This document shows, piece after piece, positions 55,827 through 62,962 of a DNA stretch of 64,000 nucleotides. The first letter of the stretch is position 1. Every line of letters begins with the position of its first letter. Position numbers and translations under genes: made by a program. The stretch lies in the IMG/VR virus record IMGVR_UViG_3300036770_003454, positions 85,079 to 149,078 of that record. One strand, given 5' to 3'. Below the pieces are notes generated by a model that saw only the letters and a program-made list of their open reading frames with translations, ran no database searches and had not been told where the DNA came from. Source of the stretch: a virus.

Positions 55827-56567
55827 TTATCCTACAAGATCACTGATAGGTAATGAATACGATATAATCATATCTTGTTCTAACAATCTTATTTCCTCAA
55901 TTGCTTCATCATATATCTGCTGACCATTAAATTGAATGCCTCCTGGCATAACCATACCAGTAAACTTCTTTAAATTATTTCCCCACTGACGTTTAATCAA
56001 AGCAGTGCAATATTGTAACAACCAACGATCTTTCCATACATCAGTAAATGTATCTGGATCAACAATTTGATATGCTTCAACAATAATATATTCTCCAGTA
56101 TTAACTTTGCTCCAATCAACATCTATATGTAATCTGTTTCTATGTCTATTGTATCTAATAGGTTGTCTTCCAACGAGAATTTCTTCTAGCATAGAAATGT
56201 GTTGCATTGCCATATAATATGGAACCAGAGATACATTTGTTAATGTATAAAGATCATTTAATGCAATTTGATATCTAATATTAAATAAATTGTTGGTATT
56301 CAATCCTTCACCAATAGTGAAAAGGTTTACTGCACCGATGATATTTTCTGGTAATTCTATATACCCATCAGTTTTGTTTTGTGCTGTTATTTGGTGTTTG
56401 TAGTATTGTTTTTCTGTACCATCAAAATGGTAATCCCAATAATAAGTTAATGCTTCATCAACTCTATCATCAACTTGTTCATCTGAAACGTTGATTTCGA
56501 TTACTGGTGCTCCTAATCTACGGAGGCAATTTTCTTTAAAAGTTGCTCTTGAATTTGGAAATGCCAT
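55827..56567 (-). CDS. 13: Neck protein gp13
   Basis: 246 residues. FKENCLRRLGAPVIEINVSD, EQVDDRVDEALTYYWDYHFD, RNRLHIDVDWSKVNTGEYII and LLQYCTALIKRQWGNNLKKF are typical gp13 blocks. Head-completion protein acting with gp14. Transcribed away from the plus-strand oxygenase operon. Confidence 0.95.
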   Translation of the reverse strand: MAFPNSRATFKENCLRRLGAPVIEINVSDEQVDDRVDEALTYYWDYHFDGTEKQYYKHQITAQNKTDGYIELPENIIGAVNLFTIGEGLNTNNLFNIRYQIALNDLYTLTNVSLVPYYMAMQHISMLEEILVGRQPIRYNRHRNRLHIDVDWSKVNTGEYIIVEAYQIVDPDTFTDVWKDRWLLQYCTALIKRQWGNNLKKFTGMVMPGGIQFNGQQIYDEAIEEIRLLEQDMIISYSLPISDLVG

Positions 56568-56581
56568 GGACTTCCTTTACA

Positions 56582-56589
56582 TATAAATA
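56582..56589 (+). promoter_or_regulatory. T4-type late promoter TATAAATA on the plus strand
   Basis: Exact TATAAATA on the plus strand, 40 bases before the Rieske gene ATG. It is the only clear plus-strand late promoter seen and would drive the three-gene oxygenase operon late. Confidence 0.82.
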
Positions 56590-56607
56590 TGATTGTGCTA
56601 TAATTAC

Positions 56608-56615
56608 TATTTATC
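56608..56615 (-). promoter_or_regulatory. Late-promoter-like GATAAATA for gp13
   Basis: GATAAATA on the minus strand, 41 bases before the gp13 ATG, overlapping the divergent promoter region. Confidence 0.5.
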
Positions 56616-56629
56616 ATGGAGCATATTTT

Positions 56630-57460
56630 ATGTTTAGAAATCCACCAAAAGTGATTGGACATATATCAGCACTAAAAAAAGGACCGTTCGTAGGTCAAGA
56701 ATATATTATGTCAAAAGTTGACGATGAAATCAAATTATTCAATCGATTGTGTCCTCATAGATTTTATCCTATTGGTGAAATAGGAAATAGTGAAATCAAA
56801 TGTAAATTGCATGGATTTGGTTTTAATTCTGATGGCAGTCCACAAAACAATCCGTATAAGTTAAACTGTCAAAGTTCTAATAATGGCAAGTCTGGAATTG
56901 TTTTTAAAAATTTTGTAGAACCTAATCATAAGTGGGTTGATGATGTTGCCAATGAAACAAATTTAGAATATAGTCATAGTTATACTGGTGAAAGTACTGG
57001 AAATTGGTTGTGGTTGATGGAAATTGAGGCAGATTTATTACATATAATAGAGAATGGAGTTCATCCATGGTTAGCATCTCAAATTGATCCATACTCTGTA
57101 AAATTAGAAAATGGTGATGGTTGGATATATCAAGAACATCCTAATGGGTGGTGGGTTTATATTTTTCCGTTTATATTTGTAGAGTGGACAAAAGGTTGTT
57201 TATCTATAAATTGCACTTTTCCTAATGATATTAAAGAAGAAAGAGGGTATAAATGGTTAACCCAATTATATTATGATCCTAAAGTAACAACAGAGCAGAG
57301 AGATATATTCAATAAAATTGAAGATGTTTTTAGAGAAGATGTTATTGTATCAGAATTACAGAAAACACGATATGTTCCATATAAAAAATGTATTAATTCA
57401 CTTGAAAGTCAATCAGTAATTTTTGGCGAATGGGTTAAAAAAAATAGGATAAAAGAATGA
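56630..57460 (+). CDS. Rieske [2Fe-2S] oxygenase-like protein
   Basis: 276 residues from the ATG at 56630, with GGAG eight bases before; the upstream extension is rejected. The Rieske cluster ligands are present: CPH (Cys41, His43) and CKLH (Cys58, His61). Downstream a possible mononuclear iron site: Asn125 in NWLWLMEIEAD, Asp135, His138 and His145 in ADLLHIIENGVH (spacing slightly different from classic Rieske oxygenases). Likely an iron oxygenase acting on an unknown substrate; it needs an electron donor not seen here. First gene of the plus-strand operon, overlapping the next by four bases. Confidence 0.85.
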   Translation: MFRNPPKVIGHISALKKGPFVGQEYIMSKVDDEIKLFNRLCPHRFYPIGEIGNSEIKCKLHGFGFNSDGSPQNNPYKLNCQSSNNGKSGIVFKNFVEPNHKWVDDVANETNLEYSHSYTGESTGNWLWLMEIEADLLHIIENGVHPWLASQIDPYSVKLENGDGWIYQEHPNGWWVYIFPFIFVEWTKGCLSINCTFPNDIKEERGYKWLTQLYYDPKVTTEQRDIFNKIEDVFREDVIVSELQKTRYVPYKKCINSLESQSVIFGEWVKKNRIKE

Positions 57461-58143
57461 TAAATTATGCTTTATTTCCAACATTGGTAAGTGAATTTCA
57501 CTATGAATATCCTTTGAGATTTAAAAAAGTATTTTTTGAAAGTGTGTTTGATCACTTAAATGAAAATGGTGAATCAAGTGAACAAACATGTCATGTAACA
57601 ATACATCATGATGAAAGATACAAAGAAATTTATGAGTTTGCCGTTTCTTGTGTCAAACAATTTATTAGAACATATAATGTAAATCCAGATTTATTTGATA
57701 TAAATGTTGTCAAATCTTGGTTGAACATATTAGGAGGACAATCAAACCCAAATCATAATCATGCAGATGCACACATTTCATTCGTATATTATGTACATGT
57801 GCCAGATACTGTTCAAAATTCAATAAGATTTTATAATTATGAAAACAGACACGAACCTTTTTCATTGTTTTGTAAAATGAATAATCAAAATAATATGTGG
57901 GATCATTTCAATTCATATACATGGCAATTCAAACCGATAGATGGACAACTAATGGTATTTCCAGCATCATTAAATCATGACACAATAGGACATGATGAAA
58001 GATTGTCGTGTAATATAAAAATCGTTGAAGATATTGAAAACAGAAGAATTGCTATTGCTGGAGATATATTGTTAACTCATAAAGAAAAGAATTCAAAACA
58101 TTTAGGATTACAACCTGTGAAAAATTGGAGATTGTTTGAATAA
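57457..58143 (+). CDS. 2OG-Fe(II) oxygenase-like protein (2OG-FeII_Oxy_5 type)
   Basis: 228 residues. Pattern of the phage-typical Fe(II)/2-oxoglutarate family: VVKSWLNILGGQSNPNHNHA with candidate iron ligands His102 and Asp104, HISFVYYVHVP, DGQLMVFPASLNH with His174, and ERLSCNIKI with Arg182 for 2-oxoglutarate. Hydroxylates an unknown substrate. Overlaps the Rieske gene by ATGA and the next gene by one base (TAATG). Confidence 0.85.
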   Translation: MINYALFPTLVSEFHYEYPLRFKKVFFESVFDHLNENGESSEQTCHVTIHHDERYKEIYEFAVSCVKQFIRTYNVNPDLFDINVVKSWLNILGGQSNPNHNHADAHISFVYYVHVPDTVQNSIRFYNYENRHEPFSLFCKMNNQNNMWDHFNSYTWQFKPIDGQLMVFPASLNHDTIGHDERLSCNIKIVEDIENRRIAIAGDILLTHKEKNSKHLGLQPVKNWRLFE

Positions 58144-58757
58144 TGAAATACACTACAATTTATAATGATCCAGTAAGAAGAGCAACTGTTTTTGAACCAT
58201 GGTGTTATTGGGACAATGCATTTACTGATGAAGAATTGCAAAAGATAATTGATTATTGTGAGTCTAAAGAATTATCTCATGGAACTACTTTTGGTCAACA
58301 AACAAAAGAAGAAACAGAAAAGATTAGAATATCGGATGTTGGTTTTCATAATAGAAATCCAGAAACGGCATGGATATTTGATAGAGTAAATTTTGTTTTA
58401 CAAAGTGCAAATGAGATGTTTTATGGATTTCATTTGAATGGTTATGATTCTTTTCAGTATACTACATATGATGCGGAAAAGAATGGTAATTATGATTGGC
58501 ATATGGATACTTGTATGGGCAGTTCCACTGACCAATTTGAAATTCGTAAATTGTCAATGACTTTGTTGTTGGATGATGATTTTGAAGGTGGTGAATTTCA
58601 ACTTAATGTAGGAAATCAAAACGAACCTGCTATTTTACCTGCACAGAAAGGTAGAGCATTATTATTTCCATCCTTTATGTGTCATAGGGTTACACCTGTA
58701 ACTAAAGGGAAGAGAAGGTCTTTGGTAGTATGGTGTTTGGGTCCAAAGTTTTATTAA
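58143..58757 (+). CDS. 2OG-Fe(II) oxygenase, prolyl 4-hydroxylase/PKHD-type
   Basis: 204 residues. The double-stranded beta-helix motifs are complete: YDWHMDT (His120, Asp122), RKLSMTLLLDDDFEGGEFQL, LLFPSFMCHRVTPV (His181) and KGKRRSLVVW (Arg191/192). Of the hydroxylase type often found in marine T4-like phages; the substrate (protein side chain or other) is unknown. Its stop codon overlaps, tail to tail, the stop of the PP-loop gene on the other strand. Confidence 0.92.
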   Translation: MKYTTIYNDPVRRATVFEPWCYWDNAFTDEELQKIIDYCESKELSHGTTFGQQTKEETEKIRISDVGFHNRNPETAWIFDRVNFVLQSANEMFYGFHLNGYDSFQYTTYDAEKNGNYDWHMDTCMGSSTDQFEIRKLSMTLLLDDDFEGGEFQLNVGNQNEPAILPAQKGRALLFPSFMCHRVTPVTKGKRRSLVVWCLGPKFY

Positions 58758-58768
58758 ATATTTAATAA
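58751..58768. repeat. 18-bp perfect AT palindrome at converging stops
   Basis: TTATTAAATATTTAATAA is its own reverse complement and contains the stop codons of both converging genes (58755-58757 plus, 58754-58756 minus). It could be a weak two-way terminator or a protein-binding site. There is no GC stem. Confidence 0.6.
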
Positions 58769-59719
58769 ACAGTCAATATATGATTTGCTAGTATAGTTGT
58801 TAATATTGTTCAATCTTTTGAAAGAATCTTTTAGAGAAGAATTTATATATAAGTCTTTAAATTTATCATCTTCTTTACTGTATGAATTAAGCAAAACATG
58901 AATATCTGAATATGGTTCAATATTATTGAGTTTGTTTTTAACATCACCAAACATAATTGGTGTTGGTGATATTAAAGGATTGTATACATCTCTTATCAAT
59001 CTTTTCATTCTTTTTATATTACTAACATATTTGTTATTTTCTTTCATATCTTTTGCAACCATATATGATTGTTTTATATGCAATTTTGGAAAATCGTTGG
59101 TTGTGAAAAAATATGTATTTTCGTGAAATGATGATGCCATAAAACAGATTTTCAAATCTAATCTAGAATAAAATTTGTTTTCTTTTCTTACTATTTTTGG
59201 TTCACCAACACCAACAACATGTGCAGTTTTTTCTTTTCTATTCATAGGTTTTGCGAACCCATACTGTTCTAAGTATTTAATGTTATATCGTTGAATAGCA
59301 GGCATAAAATGTGCAAATTGTATGTTTGAACCATCTTCTAATAGATTTTCTTTTTTGTAATAATTTACGAGAGAATCAAAAGTTATATTTACTCTATTAT
59401 AAATGCCTTTGAAATTTTTTTGCTTTAGATCAAATATAGACTTTTTACCATCAACATTTGGAGAATTAACATTTTCATAATAACAGGTTATTATTTCATC
59501 TACATGAATATTATTATCCAAAAAACTATTTAATACAGTCGTAGAATCTGAACCTCCAGAATGATATACTATGACATAATCATATGATTGTCTTATCTGC
59601 AATGCCCTTTGTTTACAAAGTTCTTTAAAAGACTCAGTTGGTTCTGTCAACCAATCCCAGTTTTTGAAAGATGTCAAGTTTTCAATGTTTATCAATATAT
59701 TTTGATTATCAAAAAACAT
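58754..59719 (-). CDS. PP-loop ATPase, paralogue A (asparagine synthase-like)
   Basis: 321 residues. A PP-loop SGGSDS (54-59) binds ATP pyrophosphate. Upstream lies WDWLTEPTESFKELCKQRA, then IRQSYDYVIVYH, which matches the paralogue at 60540. The enzyme class adenylates a carbonyl or carboxyl before amidation or sulfur/nitrogen transfer; the substrate is unknown. A later conserved GVGEPKIV segment also matches the paralogue's TGTGKTGI. Third gene of the minus-strand PP-loop series. Confidence 0.82.
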   Translation of the reverse strand: MFFDNQNILINIENLTSFKNWDWLTEPTESFKELCKQRALQIRQSYDYVIVYHSGGSDSTTVLNSFLDNNIHVDEIITCYYENVNSPNVDGKKSIFDLKQKNFKGIYNRVNITFDSLVNYYKKENLLEDGSNIQFAHFMPAIQRYNIKYLEQYGFAKPMNRKEKTAHVVGVGEPKIVRKENKFYSRLDLKICFMASSFHENTYFFTTNDFPKLHIKQSYMVAKDMKENNKYVSNIKRMKRLIRDVYNPLISPTPIMFGDVKNKLNNIEPYSDIHVLLNSYSKEDDKFKDLYINSSLKDSFKRLNNINNYTSKSYIDCLLNI

Positions 59720-59727
59720 TTTATTAT

Positions 59728-60543
59728 TTACATTTTAATTAATTCTAAAAATTGTTTTTTAGTATATGTAACTTGTGATTTTGGTTGTGTCTTTTTCTTT
59801 TCATTGATGCGTAATAGCACATTATTGATTTTTCTGTCAAAATGTTGTCTAAATTTTGGTCTAAAAATAGTTTGATATAAATTTGATTTGAATTTCTCAG
59901 ATGTGGATTTATCAAATAAATTTACCATAGAATTAACTATGCTTAAATCATACTGAAAAAACGGAATCAAAATGTTATCATCTACTATAATATCTGTGTA
60001 ATAATCCCATTCCGAAAACCCTGCTAACATAATTCCAGTTGATTTATTGTATCCAACATCACCTAAATGATCAGCAGAAACTATGATACCTCCATTTTCT
60101 TGTGCATATTTTGCACACTCAATCAATGCAATAGAATTAAGGGCTTTTACATTTGTAGTCTTTAATAAATCCAAATATTTCTTAATGAAAATTTTAGGTT
60201 GAGATATATCAATATATGTTTTTTGAATGTCAGGAAATTCCTCATAAACTAAATCTACATACATTAACTCATACTCATTGCCGGGAGTTTTAACTGTTAC
60301 TGCGGTAAACGGAATATTTAATCTTTTGAATAATCTGACAACATACTCCGAATCAGCACCACCACTAAATGCTATGTAAATAGATTTGTTCATTGCTGCA
60401 ATTTTTATTGCAGTTGCTTCACATGCTTCAATAAATTTCATTTTTGTAAAAGAATAGGGTGTTATAGTAACATCAAAATCAATATTTTTGTTAATTAGTC
60501 TTTCTTTGATATTTGTTGTTAACCAATTGTTTTCTACAATCAT
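59728..60543 (-). CDS. PP-loop ATPase, distinct type
   Basis: 271 residues. PP-loop SGGADS (60-65) in YIAFSGGADSEYVVRLF. It lacks the W-x-T-E-P helix of its neighbours but has VSADHLGDVGYNKSTGIMLA and a helical C-terminus with many Lys. Perhaps of the NH3-transfer/ExsB group. Overlaps the upstream paralogue by four bases and lies nine bases from the next. Confidence 0.8.
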   Translation of the reverse strand: MIVENNWLTTNIKERLINKNIDFDVTITPYSFTKMKFIEACEATAIKIAAMNKSIYIAFSGGADSEYVVRLFKRLNIPFTAVTVKTPGNEYELMYVDLVYEEFPDIQKTYIDISQPKIFIKKYLDLLKTTNVKALNSIALIECAKYAQENGGIIVSADHLGDVGYNKSTGIMLAGFSEWDYYTDIIVDDNILIPFFQYDLSIVNSMVNLFDKSTSEKFKSNLYQTIFRPKFRQHFDRKINNVLLRINEKKKTQPKSQVTYTKKQFLELIKM

Positions 60544-61568
60544 GTTAATTCCCTTAAATAATATTTTCTCGTGTAATATGTTTTCTGTGCATTTGGAACC
60601 TCATGCAACAATTTTTGTAATCCATTCTTGTAGTATTTATACATATCACTGTCTGTTTTGTTTTTAATAAAAGTATCTCTAATACTCATTAAAACATTTG
60701 ATGATTTTTTGGTTTTCATAATCATTGGATTGACCAGTTCATAAATTGCTTTATTATATATTTCATTATAATTTTTCATAAATGTTTTTTTATCTTTCAT
60801 TATATCAAATACTTTTAACATAGTATATGCTTGTTTTTTGATTATCTCTGTTGAGAGTAAGGTATTTCCCCAATAGAAATTCTCACGATATAAATTACCA
60901 TCAAAATATTTACCAGAATAATTCATCAACTCTAATTCACTGAAAGAAACATATGGAATTTGTTCAAAAACAGAAATACCAGTTTTTCCAGTACCTGTTA
61001 CCCAACAGGTCTTTTTGTTATCTTTAACAATATGTTTTGATAAATCATTCCAATATAAATGATGTGGACTTTTCCAACAACTTATATTATACATCCAATA
61101 ATCTTGATATTCAGATATCAATGAAAAAGATTTTGGATTTCTGAAGTATTCTGTGTAATCTAAAAATGATATTTTAGTGTTTGGCAAATCTAATTCGTTC
61201 AATAATTGTTTTACATTTACATATATTTCTCTGTTGTTATTTTCATCAGAACCAAAATATTTATCTTGAGAAAATGCACCAACAGATATGATTTCATCTA
61301 TCTGTATATTATTGTAATAAAAAGATTCTAATACATTGCGGGAGTCAATACCACCTGATAAACATAATATAACTCTTTCATATGAATCTCGTATCTCTTG
61401 TGCTCTTAATTTGTATAATTCTTTTAAAGAAAAAGATGGTTCTGTTTTCCAATCAACAGAACCATATAATGAATCGTTGTAATATATACAACATTCTTTA
61501 CCAGATTTCAAAGCATCTATATGTGTTTTATAAACATTTTTGTCTGCATCATACCAAAATATTGTCAT
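60540..61568 (-). CDS. PP-loop ATPase, paralogue B (asparagine synthase-like)
   Basis: 342 residues. PP-loop SGGIDS (71-76). The preceding VDWKTEPSFSLKELYKLRAQ, then EIRDSYERVILCL, and the following RNVLESFYYNNIQIDEIISV closely match the gene at 58754, showing duplication and divergence. No glutaminase domain is fused, so ammonia or another donor must come from elsewhere. First of the three PP-loop genes, just after a tail-fibre-associated gene. Confidence 0.82.
   Translation of the reverse strand: MTIFWYDADKNVYKTHIDALKSGKECCIYYNDSLYGSVDWKTEPSFSLKELYKLRAQEIRDSYERVILCLSGGIDSRNVLESFYYNNIQIDEIISVGAFSQDKYFGSDENNNREIYVNVKQLLNELDLPNTKISFLDYTEYFRNPKSFSLISEYQDYWMYNISCWKSPHHLYWNDLSKHIVKDNKKTCWVTGTGKTGISVFEQIPYVSFSELELMNYSGKYFDGNLYRENFYWGNTLLSTEIIKKQAYTMLKVFDIMKDKKTFMKNYNEIYNKAIYELVNPMIMKTKKSSNVLMSIRDTFIKNKTDSDMYKYYKNGLQKLLHEVPNAQKTYYTRKYYLRELT
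60634..60641 (-). promoter_or_regulatory. T4-type late promoter TATAAATA
   Basis: Exact TATAAATA on the minus strand inside the end of the first PP-loop gene, 91 bases before the ATG at 60543. It could drive the second and third PP-loop genes. Confidence 0.6.
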
Positions 61569-61993: not shown

Positions 61994-62962
61994 TTAAGAA
62001 ATAGGACCATTTCTAGTTCCTGTATTTATATATGCTGTAATATTTGAATTGCCTGATACTGCTGGACCTTGTGCACCTGCTGGTCCTGTTGAACCTGTAG
62101 ATCCAACACCACCGCCAGAACCACCAGAACCACCACTAACACCAGAATAATTATCACCTGAAATTCCTGCTGAACCTAAATTACCACCACCACCACCATT
62201 GGCTGAAAATGAAGGAAATCCTGGAGCACCTAAAACACCATTACCTCCAGCACCACCTGTTGTTGCTGTACCTGGACTTCCTGGACTGGAAGATGGTCCT
62301 CCAATACCAGCACCACCAGGACCCCCAGCACCAGCGGGAGAACCAGCACCACCTCCACCACCACCACCAGCATAGGCAGTATCTATAGAAGGACCTTTTT
62401 TATTTGGAATGCTAGAATAGTAATAACCACCAGCACCTCCACCACCTCCACCACCAGTACCACCAGAACCTCCTGGACCACCAGTACCACCAGAACCACC
62501 AGTAAATGTTGCTGATGCATTATCTACATATAATATAACTCCTGGGTTTGAATTTGCTGCAAATGCTGTTCCTCCATTACTACCAGTTCCTCCAGTTCCT
62601 CCTGTTGCTCCAGGACTTCCACCAGAACCAGAAGGTGCGGGAGCGCTGTTTGAGAAAAAAGTACCAGGACCCCCTGCTCCACCTGCACCATTAGCACCAG
62701 GAGTTCCTGGACTTCCAGCAGGGCCAGTGCCTCCTGTTATAGTAGAATTATTATCTACATACAAAAATGTTCCTGCTTTCCAACCAGTTCCAGTTCTAAA
62801 TGCTGGAGTTGTGTTAGATGTTGAACCAATATTTGCATTGATAAAACACAATAAATTCAACGGATATAATGGATTTCCTGATGTTGAGTATAAATCAACA
62901 TTATTTGTTCCGGCAGAAATTGTAACAACTTTAGTAGGTCTTAAGATTGGTATAATAAACAT
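61994..62962 (-). CDS. Glycine-rich adhesin-like tail tip protein
   Basis: 322 residues. An N-terminal beta domain (about 1-75) is followed by long Gly-Gly-x and Gly-rich runs (GTGGTGSNGG, GGPGGAGIGGPS, GGSGGSGGGVG). Two copies of a spacer motif FLYVDNNSTITGG / ILYVDNASATFTGG split the runs. This layout is that of polyglycine-II bundles in gp38-type adhesins of T4-like phages and other fibre tips, which bind host receptors. The start overlaps the fibre gene stop (TAATG). Confidence 0.82.
   Translation of the reverse strand: MFIIPILRPTKVVTISAGTNNVDLYSTSGNPLYPLNLLCFINANIGSTSNTTPAFRTGTGWKAGTFLYVDNNSTITGGTGPAGSPGTPGANGAGGAGGPGTFFSNSAPAPSGSGGSPGATGGTGGTGSNGGTAFAANSNPGVILYVDNASATFTGGSGGTGGPGGSGGTGGGGGGGAGGYYYSSIPNKKGPSIDTAYAGGGGGGGAGSPAGAGGPGGAGIGGPSSSPGSPGTATTGGAGGNGVLGAPGFPSFSANGGGGGNLGSAGISGDNYSGVSGGSGGSGGGVGSTGSTGPAGAQGPAVSGNSNITAYINTGTRNGPIS
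62023..62030 (-). promoter_or_regulatory. T4-type late promoter TATAAATA
   Basis: Exact TATAAATA on the minus strand, 45 bases before the ATG at 61978, inside the 3' end of the glycine-rich gene. It may drive the fibre-associated gene and the PP-loop genes. Confidence 0.75.

Follow-up and report, generated by a model that had tools for sequence, protein, structure and literature searches.

What does a phage make with six enzyme genes placed between its fibre genes and its neck gene? The question is raised by the final 64 kb (the window) of C1, a viral contig of 149,078 bp and 33% GC (IMG/VR record IMGVR_UViG_3300036770_003454, positions 85,079 to 149,078), which belongs to an uncultured, aquatic, T4-like phage of bacteria. 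Three oxygenases on the plus strand (a Rieske enzyme and two 2-oxoglutarate (2OG)-Fe(II) oxygenases, OG1 and OG2) face three PP-loop ATPases on the minus strand (PPa, PPb and PPc), as an earlier note on this window had described and as open reading frames (ORFs), Pfam matches and motifs confirmed (Table 1). The proposal in that note that the two groups act in one pathway was strongly supported by gene-neighbourhood tests across three seeds. Our preferred, if tentative, reading takes the island for this phage's form of a virus-encoded biosynthesis cassette, one that would tailor a lipid or small acyl compound in the course of infection.

PPb and its oxygenase partner in viral relatives

Three scans of uncultured viral contigs were performed, seeded with PPa/PPc, with the Rieske protein and with PPb. 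Scans with a single sequence or a close pair returned nothing beyond the same virus and one diverged phage (L005), and a four-sequence PPa/PPc alignment was used to reach the wider family (93 viral relatives, 80 loci kept, 62 non-redundant loci). The Rieske seed yielded 27 viral loci and the PPb seed 34, most of the latter on contigs overlapping those of the first scan and about a dozen of them new.

PPb was tied to an iron oxygenase in every scan. In the non-redundant PPa/PPc-seeded loci, presence of PPb was compared with presence of either the Rieske enzyme or a fatty acid (FA) hydroxylase-like protein (PF04116, 9e-17), and the two coincided almost completely (31/1/1/29, Fisher 3e-15). FA hydroxylase and PPb genes were adjacent in 23/25 of these loci; FA hydroxylase and Rieske occurred together in none, and a single locus across the scans (L123) carried both. 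From the Rieske seed, a PPb-type gene was found in 26/27 loci, at most 24 bp from Rieske in 23 of them, and in the remaining locus (L140) the contig ends at Rieske. From the PPb seed, 33/34 loci contained the FA hydroxylase and the last one contained Rieske (34/34 with either). The Rieske-PPb pair was also recovered from other kinds of phage, in differing orders and orientations. Two unrelated iron oxygenases thus seem to be interchangeable at one step of the pathway, which is the clearest result of the analysis.

The surrounding cassette in T4-like relatives usually has the order small gene, PPc, FA hydroxylase, PPb, PPa, TctC (a solute-binding protein), then convergent OG2, OG1 and TctC, then gp13. 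Where the small gene and OG2 are both present (26 loci), PPb was found in 24, TctC in 25, FA hydroxylase in 22 and OG1 in 21. Random occurrence of the six genes in relatives, which the earlier note had named as fatal to a shared pathway, is not what was observed. Rieske is optional (7/62 non-redundant PP-seeded loci), and the focal phage carries it in a cassette without FA hydroxylase and TctC. L005 combines Rieske and TctC with a radical SAM enzyme that groups with B12-binding members, and B12-type radical SAM enzymes were present in 13/27 Rieske-seeded loci. The locus is variable: Rieske, radical SAM, amidoligase and QueC-like genes (the last in 5 relatives) come and go. In some relatives an Amidoligase_2 or QueC-like protein fills part of the cassette (L049:10195-11001, L061:10016-10924), as if the amide-forming step were exchangeable there too.

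PPa/PPc genes were in turn associated with solute-binding proteins, lying at most 100 bp from TctC or DctP in 35/62 non-redundant loci. The phage versions show full-length homology to terephthalate-binding protein (TctC profile A14, 8e-55) and to DctP structures, of the tripartite tricarboxylate transporter and tripartite ATP-independent periplasmic transporter types respectively. They differ from these relatives in adjoining PP-loop genes and, for DctP, in having no signal peptide: by a simple signal-peptide rule, 80/81 TctC proteins, 0/10 DctP proteins and 48/357 other proteins in the loci scored as signal-peptide-like. DctP-type genes of this kind stand near PP-loop genes at L071:10745-11695, L105:505-1461, L120:1193-2140 and L135:2111-3064; the cytosol would be an unusual place for a solute-binding protein. 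No match to TctC or DctP was found in the focal contig. An apparent TctC match in the literature was rejected as a primer sequence.

Lipid-type genes surround Rieske in relatives. FA desaturases (47 genes) were found in 20/27 Rieske-seeded loci, and single loci contained a 4'-phosphopantetheinyl transferase (AcpS), an NMO/FabK-like protein, TauD or Asp/Asn-hydroxylase-type 2OG enzymes and, by eye, a ketoacyl-synthase-like protein. Desaturase arrays (about 8 genes by eye in L130) surround the Rieske-PPb pair at L130:1-16837, L136:247-12630 and in L120, together with AcpS, ketoacyl-synthase-like, NMO/FabK-like, GNAT-like and several 2OG-oxygenase-like genes; these look like phage-encoded acyl or polyene chemistry.

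Motifs, folds and selection in the six enzymes

The Rieske protein starts at ATG 56630, within an ORF that opens at TTG 56543. Its [2Fe-2S] ligands C41, H43, C58 and H61 (C-x-H, C-x2-H) and its catalytic 2-His-1-Asp iron site, assigned by motif to D135, H138, H145 and D237, were invariant in 27/27 viral sequences. These motifs (C-x-H...C-x2-H and D-x2-H-x6-H...D) constitute its likeness to carnitine monooxygenase, SxtT and naphthalene dioxygenase; unlike them it is short (276 amino acids, aa), matches scarcely beyond the Rieske domain (E 0.015 at best) and adjoins a PP-loop gene in phages. The iron triad and 2OG-binding arginine were conserved in OG1 (H102-x-D104...H174...R197, 21 relatives) and OG2 (H120-x-D122...H181...R191, 27 relatives), each residue in at least 93% of sequences. 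The 2OG-Fe(II) oxygenases of marine cyanophages and pelagiphages, common as auxiliary metabolic genes (PMC11561400), belong to the same broad families as OG2 and OG1 (phrog_61 and phrog_81). OG1 and OG2 differ from them in sequence (at most about 40% identity) and in being fixed in a cassette with PPc, PPb and TctC. When 50,697 sequenced phages were searched with tblastn, OG2 matched 359 records and OG1 8.

None of the three PP-loop proteins reaches a Pfam cut-off. The SGGxDS pyrophosphate-binding loop was retained in 129/134 sequences of the PPa/PPc family and in 42/42 of PPb. PPa and PPc are paralogues (30% identity over the matched part), and PPa is without an N-terminal extension present in its L005 counterpart. 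The PPb profile matched TtuA (7e-6) and NAD synthetase, and its AlphaFold2 (AF2) model, compared by Foldseek, retrieved 5ztb (1.5e-5) as well as NadE, LarE and TtuA. The PPc model, of low confidence (predicted local distance difference test, pLDDT, 50.6), gave a weak LarE match (7e-4). A HUP-type alpha/beta fold is accordingly predicted for PPb and PPc from the models, and for PPa by homology to PPc. Profile searches placed PPa/PPc in no Pfam or PDB family, with no real match of the PPa profile in PDB and at most a weak, motif-level PHROG match. The SGGxDS motif and predicted alpha/beta core are shared with the HUP-type PP-loop ATPases TtuA, LarE, NAD synthetase and asparagine synthetase, and the likeness is limited to that core.

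Relative to L005, amino acid identity was 76% for Rieske, 75% for OG1, 85% for OG2, 30% for PPa, 49% for PPb and 67% for PPc. The ratio of nonsynonymous to synonymous divergence (dN/dS) was approximately 0.13 for Rieske, 0.14 for OG1, 0.08 for OG2, 0.22 for PPc and 0.35 for PPb; for PPa, the fastest evolving of the six, it was approximately 0.66 at near-saturated sites (dS >1). Purifying selection is clear for all except PPa, so the enzymes are in use, with PPa changing fastest.

Genome setting and distribution

The island is flanked by the gp13 neck gene on one side and by a small gene and a glycine-rich fibre protein on the other, and nearly all T4-like relatives keep the same order in this slot between fibre genes and gp13. 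In about 30 relatives a member of the small gene's 136-aa family separates the cassette from the glycine-rich fibre gene; it may be a fibre-assembly protein. In L005, an ORF resembling a GIY-YIG homing endonuclease, read by eye, lies immediately downstream of gp13 (L005:6324-7019).

Table 1. Coordinates in the window of the six-enzyme island, its boundaries and nearby promoter-like boxes
Feature	Position	Strand	Details
T4-late-promoter-like box TATAAATA	56582-56589	+	exact match; ~40 nt before Rieske ATG
Late-promoter-like box	62023-62030	-	upstream of 61978
Late-promoter-like box	60634-60641	-	upstream of PPb
Six-enzyme island	56630-61568	+ (Rieske, OG1, OG2); - (PPa, PPb, PPc)	ORF list
gp13-type head-tail adaptor (Ad2)	55827..56567	-	phrog_211 8e-43; syntenic in relatives; conserved cassette boundary
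Rieske non-haem iron oxygenase, 276 aa	56630..57460	+	PF00355 5e-8
2OG-Fe(II) oxygenase OG1, 228 aa	57457..58143	+	2OG-FeII_Oxy_5 8e-12; phrog_81
2OG-Fe(II) oxygenase OG2, PKHD-type, 204 aa	58143..58757	+	2OG-FeII_Oxy_3 9e-15; phrog_61
PPa, PP-loop ATPase, 321 aa, SGGSDS	58754..59719	-	same new family as PPc
PPb, PP-loop ATPase, 271 aa, SGGADS	59728..60543	-	TtuA profile match; AF2/Foldseek; co-occurrence
PPc, PP-loop ATPase, 342 aa, SGGIDS	60540..61568	-	93 viral relatives; core member of T4-like cassette
Small conserved gene, 136 aa	61568..61978	-	30 relatives by phmmer; precedes PPc or FA hydroxylase in T4-like cassette
Glycine-rich fibre/adhesin-like protein	61994..62962	-	sequence; phrog_10745 4e-9; other cassette boundary

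Late promoters had been proposed for each gene group. Boxes of the expected kind are present (Table 1), and a role for them as late promoters is plausible but weak, because TATAAATA occurs 15 times in the window against 8.6 expected, a weak enrichment, and because no conserved late promoter was found at the corresponding positions in the relatives examined. Within the window no other plus-strand block exists, as had been stated; for the whole 149-kb contig this does not hold, since a second block (C1:29469-36383, outside the window) carries TnsA-like (PF08722) and tail-tube genes, the rest of the genome being mostly on the minus strand. Also outside the window, an apparent heptose/sugar-nucleotide cluster at C1:51360-56564 was read by eye as SIS isomerase, GHMP kinase, epimerase, glycosyltransferase, HAD phosphatase and cytidylyltransferase genes.

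By DNA search of the 50,697 sequenced phages, matches were limited to gp13 and small adjoining genes; the closest phage, via gp13, was Caulobacter phage Cr30, whose gp13 neighbourhood has no annotated enzyme island. With tblastn against the same records, no match was obtained for Rieske, PPa, PPb, PPc, the radical SAM enzyme, TctC or FA hydroxylase. The description of Rieske and PP-loop enzymes as unusual in phages thus stands for these families and falls for the PP-loop superfamily as such, which is not rare there.

In cells, PPa homologues were found only in Bacteriovoracaceae-type chromosomes, plus one phage-like contig: 4/291 sampled genomes in the phylum of the Bacteriovoracaceae genome, and 1/369 sampled Gammaproteobacteria (the phage-like contig). 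Homologues of Rieske or PPb were found in 0/369 of these Gammaproteobacteria at strict cut-offs; the alternative of an ordinary host pathway is only partly closed by these genome samples. By eye, the PPa homologue lies near spermidine-synthase-like membrane proteins in the Bacteriovoracaceae-type loci L106, L114, L115 and L116, near nicotianamine-synthase-like proteins in two of them, and near a glycosyltransferase-like and a DegT-aminotransferase-like gene in 2/4. Barring these few homologues of PPa, the recurring combinations of enzyme families are apparently confined to uncultured aquatic viruses.

What the cassette may make

PP-loop enzymes such as asparagine synthetase, NAD synthetase, TilS and TtuA form an AMP ester or imidate that is handed to a nitrogen or sulphur nucleophile. 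By analogy, PPb would convert a carbonyl or carboxyl group into an AMP ester, which a nitrogen or sulphur donor could then attack, and would share its substrate with an O2-activating iron enzyme, the membrane FA-hydroxylase-like protein in most relatives and Rieske in the focal phage. PPc and PPa may catalyse related ligations, the carboxylate in relatives being handled by a dedicated solute-binding protein that is absent from the focal phage, and OG1 and OG2 may add further hydroxylations. Because an oxygenase is tied to PPb and carboxylate-binding proteins to PPa/PPc, the most economical reading is that a lipid or small acyl compound is oxidised and also amidated or thiolated, and the desaturases and acyl-carrier-type genes around Rieske make acyl or lipid chemistry the leading guess for the substrate. 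The gene content, the intact catalytic motifs, the purifying selection (clear for all but PPa) and the fixed pairings are observed; the chemistry, step order, substrate class and product are our inference from there on.

Several observations weigh against this reading. PPa and PPc have no relatives of known function, and the AF2 models, built on shallow alignments (pLDDT ~50), leave the substrate pockets unreadable. Kinship within the T4-like clade inflates the co-occurrence counts. No ferredoxin or reductase dedicated to Rieske was found in the island, and its electrons are assumed to come from the host. The focal phage is without FA hydroxylase, TctC and desaturases, so that the lipid and carboxylate clues come from relatives only.

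The earlier note had suggested a virion protein, a surface glycan or the packaged DNA as the target. Direct support was found for none of these, and the recurrent partners of the cassette (solute-binding proteins, FA hydroxylase or desaturases, acyl-carrier enzymes) point rather to a small molecule or lipid. Modification of a surface glycan or of a protein of the virion or its fibres, by PKHD-type 2OG hydroxylation and other reactions followed by PP-loop amidation, with altered adsorption or exclusion of competitors as the result, is unlikely: it would suit the slot beside the fibre genes, the resemblance of OG2 to PKHD hydroxylases, and, as read by eye, the sugar-nucleotide/heptose-like cluster of C1 and the glycosyltransferase-like and DegT-like neighbours of the bacterial PPa homologue, but a protein or glycan substrate makes rather poor sense of exported TctC proteins, a membrane FA hydroxylase and desaturases, and other phage kinds show no recognised fibre genes beside the module. 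Nucleoside or DNA hypermodification, as in the 7-deazaguanine (QueC) pathways of other phages, is very unlikely. QueC-like genes do occur in relatives, and PHROG returned weak QueC-like and PAPS-reductase matches for the PP-loop proteins; these matches cover the PP-loop motif only (~60 residues), the C-terminal zinc-binding Cys cluster of QueC is absent from PPa, PPb and PPc by inspection, no QueD, QueE or transglycosylase was recognisable in the island by inspection, and it is hard to see what solute-binding proteins and an FA hydroxylase would do in a pathway of this kind.

Capture of a metal chelator or organic acid by the solute-binding proteins, with the enzymes making or degrading it for nutrient or metal supply, is quite unlikely. 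The signal peptides of TctC and its closeness to aromatic-carboxylate binders agree with scavenging, as do the spermidine-synthase-like and nicotianamine-synthase-like neighbours seen by eye in bacteria; against it, the focal phage has no solute-binding protein, the DctP proteins have no signal peptide, and the loci gave no sign of a transporter's membrane subunit. The variability of the locus is what would be expected of unrelated cargo genes accumulating in a changeable part of the genome, a highly improbable explanation that is already largely refuted by the coupling of PPb to FA hydroxylase or Rieske in all three scans, by strong purifying selection and by the persistence of adjacent pairs in differing orders and orientations.

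Aquatic phages are already known to carry auxiliary metabolic cassettes, as well as 2OG or desaturase genes occurring singly (PMC11561400, PMC7029224). Freshwater pelagimyophages, likewise uncultured, carry the lipid-modifying genes fabF, stearoyl-CoA desaturase and a 2OG oxygenase, and their account makes no mention of Rieske or PP-loop genes (PMC7029224). In the open-access literature (subscription papers and preprints not covered), neither Rieske enzymes of phages nor a PP-loop/oxygenase module of this kind was found described, and there is a real chance that the system will prove wholly new once its product is known. It is possible, if doubtful, that the cassette represents a virus-specific biosynthesis alien to cells, in which a new PP-loop ligase family works with a dedicated carboxylate-binding protein, and PPb with an interchangeable iron oxygenase (membrane hydroxylase or Rieske), their joint product in infected aquatic bacteria being a metabolite or lipid not yet described.

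The auxiliary genes of phages are generally pictured as host genes used one at a time, whereas the cassette shows several enzyme families returning in set combinations. Such combinations, with one step filled by either of two unrelated oxygenases, are the mark of a real multi-step pathway, and PPb probably either uses or makes whatever compound FA hydroxylase and Rieske both oxidise. The product of this pathway could reshape infected cells or their exudates.

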